From contig WLIV01000033.1 in NCBI GenBank assembly GCA_009702045.1, positions 1 to 41,219 on the forward strand: 41,219 nt of DNA. Direction: 5' to 3'. Of the stretch, positions 1 through 40,335 are shown one piece after another (positions within the stretch are counted from its first letter, which is position 1; every line of letters begins with the position of its first letter). The notes under the pieces were generated by a model. That model was not told the DNA's origin, ran no database searches, and worked only from the letters and a program-made list of their open reading frames with translations. The position numbers were made by a program, and so were the translations under genes. This DNA comes from Actinomycetota bacterium. GTDB taxonomy: Bacteria > Actinomycetota > Acidimicrobiia > Acidimicrobiales > Ilumatobacteraceae.

Positions 1-1620
1 AAGACCCGTTACAGCACGCCGGGCGTGGGCCTCATCAGCCCGCCGCCGCACCACGACATCTACTCGATCGAGGATCTCAAGCAGTTGATCCACGACCTCA
101 AGAACTCGAACCCGGCCGCACGTGTGCACGTCAAGCTGGTGTCCGAGGTCGGGGTCGGCACGGTCGCCGCTGGTGTCAGCAAGGCCAAGGCCGATGTGGT
201 GCTGATCTCCGGTCACGATGGTGGCACCGGTGCCAGCCCGCTGACGTCGCTGAAGCACGCCGGTGCACCGTGGGAACTCGGCCTCGCCGAGACCCAACAG
301 ACGTTGCTGTTGAACGGGCTTCGCGATCGCATCGTCGTGCAGGCCGATGGCCAGCTGAAGACCGGTCGCGATGTCGTCATCGCCGCCCTCCTGGGCGCCG
401 AGGAGTTCGGCTTTGCCACCGCCCCGTTGGTGGTCAGCGGCTGCATCATGATGCGCGTCTGTCATCTCGACACATGCCCGGTTGGAGTCGCCACGCAGAA
501 CCCGGAACTGCGCAAGCGGTTCAGCGGCAAGCCCGAGTTCGTGGTGACGTTCATGGAGTACATCGCCGAGGAAGTGCGCGAGCACATGGCCCGTCTGGGT
601 TTCCGTACGATGCAGGAGATGGTGGGCCGCGTCGAGGTGCTCGACACACGTGACGCGATCGACCACTGGAAGGCGAAGGGTCTCGACATCAGCCCGATCC
701 TGGCCATCCCACAGAACCCCTACGGGCAGACCCTGCACCAGTCGGTGACGCAGGATCACGGTCTCGATGACGCGCTCGATCAACTGCTGATGCGCGAGTG
801 CGCACCCGCTGTCGAACGCGGCGAGCGGGTGACGCTCGATCTGCCGATCAAGAACGTCAACCGGACGGTCGGCACCATGCTCGGTTCGGCGATCACCAAG
901 GCCCACGGCGGAAAGGGACTGCCGGACGGCACGGTCACGCTCAACTTCCGCGGTTCGGCCGGTCAGAGCTTCGGTGCCTTCGTGCCCGCCGGTGTGACGA
1001 TGACCCTCGAAGGTGATGCCAACGACTACGTCGGTAAGGGACTCTCCGGTGGTCGCATCGTGGTGCGTCCCGATCGTGTTGCGTTGTTTCCAGCAGAGGA
1101 CAACGTGATCGCCGGCAACGTCATCGGCTACGGCGCGACGGGCGGCGAGATCTTCTTGCGCGGCACTGTCGGCGAGCGTTTCTGCGTGCGCAACTCCGGT
1201 GCCACCGCCGTCGTGGAGGGAGTGGGCGACCATGCCTGCGAGTACATGACGGGCGGTCGTGTGGTGGTGCTCGGTCCTACTGGCCGCAACTTCGCTGCTG
1301 GTATGAGCGGCGGCATCGCCTACGTGTACGACCCGGATGATTCGTTCGCTGCTCGTGTGAACAAGGAGATGGTGCGGTTGCAAACGCTCGGCGACACCGA
1401 CCGCGAGTTCCTGCTCGAGACCGTGCGCAAGCACGCCGACCACACCGGCTCGGCTGTGGCGACACGCATCATCGCCGAATGGTCGGCCGAGAGCACGAAG
1501 TTCAAACGGGTGATGCCCATCGACTACGAACGGGTGCTCAACGTGATGAAGGACGCCGAGGCCGCTGGTCTCGACGAAGAAGCGACGCTGGCAAAGGTGA
1601 TGGAGGCGAGCCGTGGGTGA
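1..1620 (+). CDS. gltB: Glutamate synthase large subunit, 3' part (5' end outside window)
   Basis: This is the C-terminal 539 residues of the NADPH-dependent glutamate synthase (GOGAT) alpha subunit, which makes two glutamates from glutamine and 2-oxoglutarate in the cytoplasm. The frame is open from the first base, so the gene is cut by the window edge; the full protein is usually about 1500 aa. The FMN-binding synthase domain is visible ([11 protein letters not shown]). It is followed by the 3Fe-4S ligands in the C-x5-C-x4-C pattern (visible residues 148, 154 and 159) and then the C-terminal GXGXG beta-helix domain with repeated glycine motifs such as GGxIxVRPD and [11 protein letters not shown]. 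The stop overlaps the gltD start by 8 bp, so the two subunits are co-translated. The amidotransferase N-terminus is not in view. The family call is very secure. Confidence 0.97.
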
Positions 1621-30817: not shown

Positions 30818-30891
30818 GGGCGATTAGCTCAGTCGGCTAGAGCGCTACGTTCACACCGTAGAGGTCACGTGTTCGAGCCACGTATCGCCCA
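30818..30891 (+). tRNA. tRNA-Val (anticodon CAC)
   Basis: This is a 74-nt cloverleaf. The acceptor stem GGGCGAT pairs with ATCGCCC. The D-arm is GCTC/GAGC, the anticodon stem CTACG/CGTAG holds the loop TTCACAC (anticodon CAC), and the T-arm ACGTG/CACGT holds TTCGAGC. The discriminator base is A and no CCA is encoded. It reads the GUG valine codon, a very common codon in these genes. Confidence 0.96.
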
Positions 30892-38233: not shown

Positions 38234-39133
38234 TCATTGGGGTGCTCCTGGCCGCCGGTAGGACTGTTCGGTACGCATGACGGTGAACCCGAGCGATTCG
38301 TAGAGACGCACCGCAGAGGTGTTCGTCGCGTCAACGTAGAGCATGGCCATCTCCGCACCGTTGCGTTGCATGTGTTGCAAGCCTGCCACGGTGAGAGCTC
38401 TGCCGAGGCCGAGGCCGTGGAAATCGGGGTGCACGGCGATGACATAGATCTCGCCGGCGAGACCGCCGTCATGGGCAGCACCTGGGTGCATCTTCGTCCA
38501 ACAGAAGGCTGCGAGGCGTTCGTCGCGTTCGTGCAGCAGGAACCCATCGGGGTCGAACCACGGCTCGCGGATTCGCTGTTCCAGGGCGGCGAGATCCCAG
38601 CCGCCTTGTTCGCCGTGGGCCGCGAAGGCCGCGTTGTTCACCGTCAGCCATGCCTGTTCATCGCGCCCGACTTCGAACGAACGGAGGGCCACCGTGGCGG
38701 CCTCAGTGATGGGCAACGCTCGTTGCATGTGCAACAACTGTCGGTCGGCCTTCATCCGAAGGTGTTCAGCGGTGCTGGCTGTTGCGGCGTCGGGTCGCGC
38801 CCACCATGTGATGGCCGCGTCGGGGGGGAGCTGCGCGACCAGAGCGATGAGCAACTCGCTGCGGTTTCCAGCCGGGTCGGCGCAGCGCAGCGTGTCGGCG
38901 ATGCCGTCGATCACGTACCCCTCGTTGCCAGTGGATGCCTGGGCGTACCCGACCAGTGCGTCGTCGTGGTAGCCGAGCGCGCCGACGAAGCCTGGTCGTG
39001 GTCCTTGCGTGAGGTCGAGCAGGAGGTGGTCGCTGAGCCGCGAGTCGTCCATGGCCTGCGCTTCGCTCAGGAAGTCGAGGACTTCCTGGCGTTCATCGAG
39101 GGAGAGGCGGCCGGCAGTGCGTACACGCAGCAT
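38234..39133 (-). CDS. mshD: Mycothiol synthase
   Basis: This is a 299-aa protein with two GNAT domains that acetylates Cys-GlcN-Ins in the last step of mycothiol synthesis, the actinobacterial thiol. The C-terminal domain carries NNAAFAAHGEQGGWDL, REPWFDPDGFLL, CWTKMHP and the acetyl-CoA motif VHPDFHGLGLGRALTVAGL, then MLYVDATNTSAVRLYESLGF; together these are diagnostic of MshD. The ATG 39133 is 8 nt after TAGCCT (39147-39142, minus). nth diverges across 61 bp. This gene is the best taxonomic marker in the window. Confidence 0.95.
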   Translation of the reverse strand: MLRVRTAGRLSLDERQEVLDFLSEAQAMDDSRLSDHLLLDLTQGPRPGFVGALGYHDDALVGYAQASTGNEGYVIDGIADTLRCADPAGNRSELLIALVAQLPPDAAITWWARPDAATASTAEHLRMKADRQLLHMQRALPITEAATVALRSFEVGRDEQAWLTVNNAAFAAHGEQGGWDLAALEQRIREPWFDPDGFLLHERDERLAAFCWTKMHPGAAHDGGLAGEIYVIAVHPDFHGLGLGRALTVAGLQHMQRNGAEMAMLYVDATNTSAVRLYESLGFTVMRTEQSYRRPGAPQ

Positions 39134-39194: not shown

Positions 39195-39845
39195 ATGGCC
39201 GCACCGCGAACTCCCAAGGGCCGGGCACGCGCGCTCGCGGCGCGCTTGGCAGTGGAGTATCCCGAGGCACTCTGTGAACTCGATCACTCGAATGCTTTCC
39301 AACTGCTAACGGCGACGATCCTGTCGGCTCAGTGCACCGATGTGCGGGTGAACATGGTGACCCCGGTGCTGTTCGCTCGCTACCCGGATGCTGAGGCGTT
39401 GGCGTCGGCAGCGCCGTCGGAGCTTGAGAGCATGATTCGCTCGACTGGCTTCTTTCAGAGCAAGGCGCGCCACCTGATCGGTATGGCGCAGACGCTGCTC
39501 GAACGGTTTCACGGCGAGGTGCCGTCGGCGCTGGCCGACTTGGTGGCGTTGCCTGGCGTCGGGCGCAAGACTGCGAACGTCGTACGCAGCGTCGCGTTCG
39601 GCCTCCCGGGTCTCCCCGTGGACACTCACGTGCTGCGCTTGACTCACAGATGGGGTCTCACCGCTGACGACGATGCCGTGAAGGTGGAGACGACACTGTG
39701 CGCGTATCTTCCCCCGGCCGAATGGGGGGCATTCAGCCTGCGCACGATCCTGCACGGTCGCCGTGTGTGCAGCGCACGGTCTCCGCAATGTGGGCACTGC
39801 GCGGTGGAGGATCTGTGTCCGGCCTCGTCGTTGCCAACTCGATGA
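39195..39845 (+). CDS. nth: Endonuclease III
   Basis: This 216-aa DNA glycosylase/AP lyase removes oxidised pyrimidines. The helix-hairpin-helix with the catalytic Lys is LPGVGRKTANVV and the catalytic Asp is in VDTHVLRL. ATILSAQCTD is the substrate-side block. The 4Fe-4S ligands follow the C-x6-C-x2-C-x5-C pattern near the end (CSARSPQCGHCAVEDLC). Length is normal. ATG 39195 is 6 nt after TAGTCT (39183-39188). The next element downstream is a candidate small RNA. Confidence 0.97.
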   Translation: MAAPRTPKGRARALAARLAVEYPEALCELDHSNAFQLLTATILSAQCTDVRVNMVTPVLFARYPDAEALASAAPSELESMIRSTGFFQSKARHLIGMAQTLLERFHGEVPSALADLVALPGVGRKTANVVRSVAFGLPGLPVDTHVLRLTHRWGLTADDDAVKVETTLCAYLPPAEWGAFSLRTILHGRRVCSARSPQCGHCAVEDLCPASSLPTR

Positions 39846-39874
39846 CGAGTGGTGCGAACCACTGGGAGTGAGAG

Positions 39875-39902
39875 TTGCACCGACTCGCAAACAGTGTATA
39901 GT
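39875..39902 (+). promoter_or_regulatory. Sigma70-like promoter of the candidate small RNA
   Basis: TTGCAC (39875-39880) and TATAGT (39897-39902) with a 16-nt spacer are among the best matches to the vegetative consensus in the window. Transcription would begin about A39909. Confidence 0.7.
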
Positions 39903-39908
39903 TGCCCT

Positions 39909-40007
39909 ATCAACCGGGTGCTGGTCATCTGGAACGCGTGCGATGCCGGGATCCGCCGCCTGGCATTGCCGAGTGACGGCCCCGAAAGGGGCCGTCGCTG
40001 TTGTTTT
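39909..40007 (+). ncRNA. Candidate small non-coding RNA, about 99 nt
   Basis: It is defined by a promoter upstream and a factor-independent terminator downstream (GACGGCCCC 39975-39983, GAAA tetraloop, GGGGCCGTC 39988-39996, then GCTGTTGTTTT). The body contains a further possible stem (ATGCC/GGCAT, about 39943-39947 and 39961-39966). There is no start codon with a ribosome site and no downstream gene on this strand until hisC at 40411, so it looks like a free RNA rather than a leader. I do not recognise the family. The annotation is inferred from signals only. Confidence 0.6.
39975..40007 (+). terminator. Factor-independent terminator of the candidate small RNA
   Basis: A perfect 9-bp GC-rich stem with a GAAA tetraloop is followed by a T-rich tail ending in TTTT. 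This is the most classical terminator in the window. Confidence 0.85.
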
Positions 40008-40131
40008 GGGCCCGTTTCGTGGCGCATGCGCTCACGTCGTGAACTGTGCTCGCAAAGTGTGTTGATGACCGTCAGGCGACGGAGCCCGGCAGAGGGCGCG
40101 TCACACTGAGTGGTCACTTCTGAGGATTGTC

Positions 40132-40335
40132 TCAGTGTGCAGCGGCGGCCAACTTGGCAGCGCGGCGCAGCAGACGAGATGCCGTGCGCAACGCTCGCTC
40201 GGCTTCGACCAATGCCCCGGCGACATCATCGTGCTGCGAGGCCTGATACCCCGGTACGAGATCTCCCACTTCATGTTGGTAGCGGTCGACGTGATCGGCC
40301 ATCACTGAGAGATGCGCGACGGGTGTGGAGGGCAT
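40132..40335 (-). CDS. Small helical protein of unknown function (67 aa)
   Basis: I do not recognise this short gene. The 67-residue product is acidic and His-containing at first (DHVDRYQHEVGDLVPGYQ) and then forms an amphipathic basic helix rich in Ala, Arg and Leu (ALVEAERALRTASRLLRRAA). There is no signal peptide or Cys. Support for it being real is the ATG at 40335 exactly 6 nt after CACACT (40347-40342, minus), the same box and spacing as at the crotonase gene. hisC diverges 75 bp away. A longer upstream open frame would run antisense through hisC and is not credible. Confidence 0.6.
   Translation of the reverse strand: MPSTPVAHLSVMADHVDRYQHEVGDLVPGYQASQHDDVAGALVEAERALRTASRLLRRAAKLAAAAH

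Follow-up and report, generated by a model that had tools for sequence, protein, structure and literature searches.

A conserved, structured and apparently non-coding predicted small RNA with CCGCC hairpin loops, mostly found behind nth in the order Acidimicrobiales

Small RNAs built on a comparable plan have been described before in actinobacteria. The 6C RNA (RF01066) is defined by two stem-loops, each typically with six cytosines, and that of Corynebacterium glutamicum is about 100 nt long by northern blot (accessible part of PMC4046766). In Mycobacterium abscessus, according to the accessible part of PMC10470900, either of the C-rich loops of B11/6C alone represses the target via a G-rich sequence in its 5' UTR. 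We have analyzed a stretch of 41,219 nucleotides from a member of the Ilumatobacteraceae (contig WLIV01000033.1 of assembly GCA_009702045.1, hereafter the window) and found a predicted RNA gene that resembles 6C/B11 in being actinobacterial, about 100 nt long and made of two hairpins with C-rich loops. The resemblance stops at the loop sequences. Those of 6C are runs of about six or more C, whereas the typical loops here are UCCCGCC in hairpin 1 and AUCCGCCG in hairpin 2, and the first of them is replaced by CUGGU in the window itself. A published description of this RNA was not found among the literature matches listed, in a search largely without subscription journals. The terms Acidimicrobiales and sRNA co-occurred only in a review on Streptomyces development, with one mention each, and none of the papers searched paired Ilumatobacteraceae with noncoding RNA.

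The features of the locus are collected in Table 1. The RNA gene was delimited with two covariance models, R1 made from 27 sequences and a wider one, R2, made from 95, both of which gave full-length matches at the same 98 nt (96.5 and 81.5 bits respectively), very close to the roughly 99 nt predicted in a preliminary description of this DNA. In its own genome, a 3.65-Mb draft, the RNA is single-copy, the next match having 15.6 bits, which is chance level. The predicted fold of the 98 nt has an energy of -56.5 kcal/mol (z = -4.68), equalled by one of 200 shuffled sequences.

Table 1. Coordinates of the small RNA gene, its predicted elements and its neighbours in the window
Feature	Position	Strand	Remarks
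Small RNA gene	39909..40006	+	98 nt; predicted start, set by the promoter and the 5' limit of conservation
Candidate operator, CAC-N5-GTG dyad	39860..39870	+	just upstream of the -35 box; putative
-35 box, TTGCAC	39875..39880	+	TTGC at the same place in 14/14 loci; only 3/6 to TTGACA
-10 box, TATAGT	39897..39902	+	5/6 to consensus; -10-like box at the right distance in 56/110 members
Hairpin 1	39914..39932	+	from the fold; derived loop CUGGU replacing the usual UCCCGCC
Hairpin 2	39937..39971	+	from the fold; exposed loop AUCCGCCG at 39951-39958
Intrinsic terminator	39972..40006	+	12-pair stem, GAAA loop, T-rich tail; double-sided changes in all 10 modelled pairs
mshD-like mycothiol synthase	38234..39133	-	TIGR03448, 210.6 bits (cutoff 163.1)
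nth, endonuclease III	39195..39845	+	TIGR01083, 235.2 bits (cutoff 211.7); upstream neighbour
56-aa convergent small gene	40132..40302	-	tblastn match in 26/26 first-set loci; basic C-terminal stretch
tRNA gene	30818-30891		ordinary; the only Rfam match in the window

The similarity in plan raises the possibility that this is a divergent member of 6C, the more so since the Rfam test is weak: the 6C model matched the known 6C RNA of C. glutamicum, used as control, only below its cutoff. At the gathering score, no Rfam 15 family was found over the RNA in the window or in 30 other loci carrying it (members), 6C with its gathering score of 47 included. Scans at weak thresholds (E up to 10) of the window and of members L004 and L154 did not list 6C either, and the best sub-threshold match was Scr3202 in L154 (19.9 bits against a cutoff of 52). 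The whole genome of the window also lacked a 6C match at E up to 10, with the same weak control. Actually, two genomes (G040 and G042) carry the RNA described here and, as a separate element on a different contig, a 6C-like RNA that scores below the cutoff. Besides, the only 6C match at the gathering score was in L112, a non-member locus, and the four best 6C loci (L112 to L115) gave no R2 match with E up to 10; the three weak R2 hits, of 10.3-17.7 bits, were in L116 and L121. Together with the different loop sequences, these data make membership in 6C very unlikely in our estimation. By analogy, the RNA would at best work like 6C. As for the 6C loci themselves, L113, L114 and L115 have at about 1501-1581 (minus strand) 6C-like RNAs of 39.0, 34.0 and 32.4 bits (Rfam cutoff 47) in which we saw by eye three hairpins, terminator included, with a C run in each loop. 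Their appearance suggests an undercalled variant of 6C from the same bacterial family.

The preliminary description had noted a consensus promoter, TTGCAC-N16-TATAGT, ahead of the RNA. Both boxes are where it placed them, separated by 16 nt. The word consensus holds for the -10 box and fails for the -35 box, and a consensus promoter scan of the window did not list this site because of its poor agreement with TTGACA. The pattern TTGCRC-N15-18-TATAGT, devised after the site was seen, occurs once in the window and in none of 100 shuffles. The evidence that supports a promoter is comparative rather than consensus-based. We have inspected 14 loci, of which 13 are from the same genus and one is from a different genus in the family. 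All of them have TTGC at the -35 place, and with the columns anchored on it, GTGTA and the final T of the -10 region proved invariant. Over the wider set of 110 members, 51% had a correctly placed -10-like hexamer (at least 4/6), a proportion that fell to 2.4% at control offsets. In ten of the 14 loci (nine of the 13 from the same genus, and L006 from the other), the dyad upstream of the -35 box, a candidate operator, was located between -49 and -52 relative to the start of the RNA, and the columns upstream of it were little conserved. A second CAC-N5-GTG dyad is found in the window at 40102-40112, and in L005, L009, L010 and L011 at about +97, so that these dyads flank the RNA gene on both sides; there are 25 of them in the 39,111 bases of the 14 loci, 21 within -150 to +250 of the RNA start. 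The four loci with no dyad at -49 to -52 (L008, L016, L026 and L027) are exactly those that have a TCAA-N7-TCAA direct repeat, with an 11-nt period, at -71 or -72, upstream of the promoter. These repeats resemble the sites of OmpR/PhoB-type response regulators.

At the other end of the gene, the stem, GAAA loop and T-rich tail reported before were all there, and the stem turned out to be slightly longer than the 9 bp given: in the stem-loop at 39972-39999 the nine perfect pairs are followed by G-U, G-C and A-U, and the tail is GTTGTTTT. With its 12 pairs it has the longest stem among the 14 terminator-like sites detected across the window, the next best having 9. The number of such sites was no higher than in shuffled sequences in three scans (1 versus 1.3, 9 versus 8.4 and 4 versus 8.9), so the case for the terminator rests on stem length and covariation and not on the scan.

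The covariation was analyzed over the 25 modelled pairs of the two hairpins and the terminator. The set of 110 members is a selection, consisting of the window, 25 loci of the first alignment (A1), 40 loci from among the best model hits, 40 further hits chosen for diversity and four loci reached via nth. These last four (L032, L033, L034 and L036) belong to six nth loci scanned (L032-L037) among 80, the other two of which, L035 and L037, had no RNA match at E up to 1. One A1 locus, L031, is the same place as L165, and L165 alone was counted. In the two alignments fitted to the model (A2 and A3), a procedure that favours the model's structure, double-sided changes were found in all 25 pairs and none of 500 shuffles reached any of the measures. 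The proportion of cells pairing was 96.7% and 95.9%, versus 79.0% and 76.9% in the shuffles, and fell to 31-57% when the partners were slid. A2 includes two spurious reverse-strand rows (L135 and L015) that were dropped from A3. The structure-free MAFFT alignment A1, with 27 members (26 from the same bacterial family and one from the order), gave the same answer more weakly. Here double-sided changes appeared in 13 of the 25 pairs, 94.8% of the cells paired against 90.8% in the shuffles, and the observed values were reached by none of 500 shuffles on four of the five measures and by one on the fifth. The covariance search among relatives downstream of nth, which the preliminary description had suggested, was thus strongly positive. 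Its claim that no reading frame fits the region also held: in the 101 members with both motifs, the spacing between the first CCGCC and the CCGCC of hairpin 2 was scattered over the three frames (37, 35 and 29), so that a conserved reading frame was not found. By sequence comparison, the locus therefore has the features of a stand-alone small RNA, namely its own promoter, no reading frame, a covarying structure and an intrinsic terminator.

The loops of the RNA are conserved in sequence. CCGCC was found within the hairpin 2 stretch (nt 29-68) in all 110 members, and in the hairpin 1 loop in 100 of them. Both copies are predicted to be exposed, with a mean unpaired probability over the members of at least 0.97 at the five bases. 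The window and its close relative L003 (G009) are among the ten members with no CCGCC in hairpin 1, and the CUGGU form is confined to these two. The ten are spread over several genera and families, and judging from this taxonomic spread the loss or alteration of hairpin 1 apparently happened repeatedly.

With blastn at E <1e-5, run over 100 genomes including that of the window, the region was detected in 23 further genomes, none of them from outside the family. The covariance models reached much further. R1 (E up to 0.01) matched 71 of 221 genomes and 20 of 27 genera of the family, and 144 of 298 sampled genomes of the order Acidimicrobiales, corresponding to 93 of 171 genera. R2 found the RNA in 53 of the 296 genomes sampled from the class, and only one of these, the 85% complete draft G622 (61.8 bits), is not from the order. 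Over the phylum (246 genomes), R2 gave no score above 29.2 bits beyond the class, and outside the order R1 gave at most 32.9 bits. The R1 hits outside the order (22.7-32.9 bits) and in the class (G551, G586 and G605, with 30.1-31.7 bits) were treated as chance since they are absent among the R2 matches, the genome samples being partly different. One genome, G707, was matched by both models at different places. Many genomes had no R1 match at all (150 of the 221 of the family and 154 of the 298 of the order). Incomplete drafts do not explain these absences, since 39 of 79 good genomes of the family (at least 90% complete and at most 5% contaminated) also had none, as had 115 of 227 well-assembled genomes of the order. 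The distribution is that of an order-wide RNA family with gaps, which may reflect loss or the strict filters of the search. A few genomes gave two hits. G087 has one (of L200 and L201) behind nth and the other in a locus with no nth, and the two copies of G367 (L229 and L230), both near contig ends, may be assembly duplicates.

The genomic surroundings bear on two other explanations. As stated in the preliminary description, the RNA sits between nth and a small gene of the minus strand. The latter, for which Pfam and NCBIfam gave no match, is a conserved gene in the family and was found less often outside; its weakest tblastn match was in L031, from another family (E 0.021). Since nth is on the same strand and ends 63 nt before the RNA, the latter could be a mere transcription terminator, that is, the 3' end of the nth mRNA, and the terminator would indeed stop nth transcripts too. 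We find this highly improbable, since the RNA has a conserved promoter of its own and, upstream of the terminator, two hairpins with conserved loop sequences. Moreover, nth is not a constant companion: in the 109 other members, four of which were found through nth and thus bias these counts, it is upstream on the same strand in 87, convergent in 2 and absent from the fetched locus in 20, some loci being cut by contig ends. In eight of these 20, both the mshD-like match upstream and hisC downstream were found, indicating that the RNA is in its place where nth is missing.

The other explanation is a leader or attenuator of hisC. In the window, as in many family members, the start of this gene lies about 400 nt beyond the RNA. 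Read-through into hisC, which had been named as the outcome contrary to a free-standing RNA, is not what we found: the RNA ends in a terminator and a minus-strand gene intervenes. Besides, in other families most of the hisC genes located were 1.6-1.9 kb beyond the RNA, with 0.5-0.6 kb in two f27 members, and hisC was not found in the remaining loci, as fetched to only about 1.5-2.5 kb past the RNA. A role as hisC leader thus has next to no probability. The presence of the RNA in loci with no nth argues against its being an nth tail or a hisC leader, and these two readings, together with a coding small ORF and membership in 6C, were found less likely. Comparison of the loci shows that, throughout the order, the RNA has for the most part been passed on in its position behind nth, and that 39909-40006 is a conserved, structured and apparently non-coding unit with its own promoter and terminator.

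Regarding function, we consider it probable, though well short of certain, that this is the gene of a free-standing regulatory RNA of about 98 nt acting in trans, with its CCGCC loops pairing to sites on mRNAs. Transcription would start at 39909 and stop at about 40006, the RNA would be stabilised by its own stems, and a restricted group of mRNAs would offer GGCGG-type sites for pairing with the exposed loops. Partial redundancy between the two loops would leave hairpin 1 free to drift, as in the species of the window, with hairpin 2 kept in every member examined. The pairing mechanism is proposed by analogy with 6C/B11, and the tolerated loss of hairpin 1 would fit such redundancy. We have searched for loop-complementary sites in two genomes, covering 0.8 Mb of G025, a relative from the same family, and 0.4 Mb of G062. 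Near the start codons of 331 long genes of G025 they were not in excess: 7-mers complementary to hairpin 2 numbered 9 against a mean of 8.5 in the interiors of coding sequences, and those for hairpin 1 numbered 2 against 5.7. The Shine-Dalgarno control was clearly enriched (17 versus 4.3, with 6-mers). A permutation test in the same genome was not significant either, with 14 8-mers for hairpin 2 when 7.0 were expected (22 of 200 permutations as high) and 5 versus 6.4 for hairpin 1. An enrichment of GGCGGAT at G025 starts was dropped, at least two of the sites simply running into the ATG. The sole target result pointing toward pairing sites is an apparent excess of 8-mers in G062 (18 versus 6.1 for hairpin 1 and 21 versus 7.8 for hairpin 2, with 3 of 200 permutations each), which we disregarded because antisense frames had visibly contaminated the quick gene calls in this genome, whose GC content is 74%.

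The lack of excess at G025 starts, unlike the Shine-Dalgarno control, suggests either that the targets are few, and a few specific targets would escape such a test, or that the action is mediated by a protein. The second option, in which a protein would recognise the CCGCC hairpin loops and be titrated or guided by the RNA, is a serious rival, on balance doubtful. The hairpin 2 motif is more rigid than expected for an RNA that follows changing mRNA targets, and the missing excess of complementary sites is also in its favour. The decoys of CsrB/RsmZ type are alike in showing a short repeated motif in hairpin loops. However, the motif there is GGA, and known decoy RNAs usually carry many copies of it, while each RNA here has CCGCC in one or two copies only. 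We know of no CCGCC-binding protein in these bacteria. Coming back to the loops themselves, we tentatively suggest as a possibility that what keeps the CCGCC of hairpin 2 from changing is that it reads a single partner, ancient and itself invariant, which could be a dedicated RNA-binding protein or one conserved transcript. Hairpin 1 would be an optional second copy of the reader, kept, lost or retargeted by lineage, and the species of the window would have swapped in a new loop.

If trans regulation by this RNA is true, the order would possess a conserved RNA regulator for which a precise gene model, a loop motif and natural loop variants are at hand, making its function directly testable. 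The separate 6C-like RNA in turn suggests that C-rich loops may have been put to use repeatedly in actinobacteria, under different loop codes.
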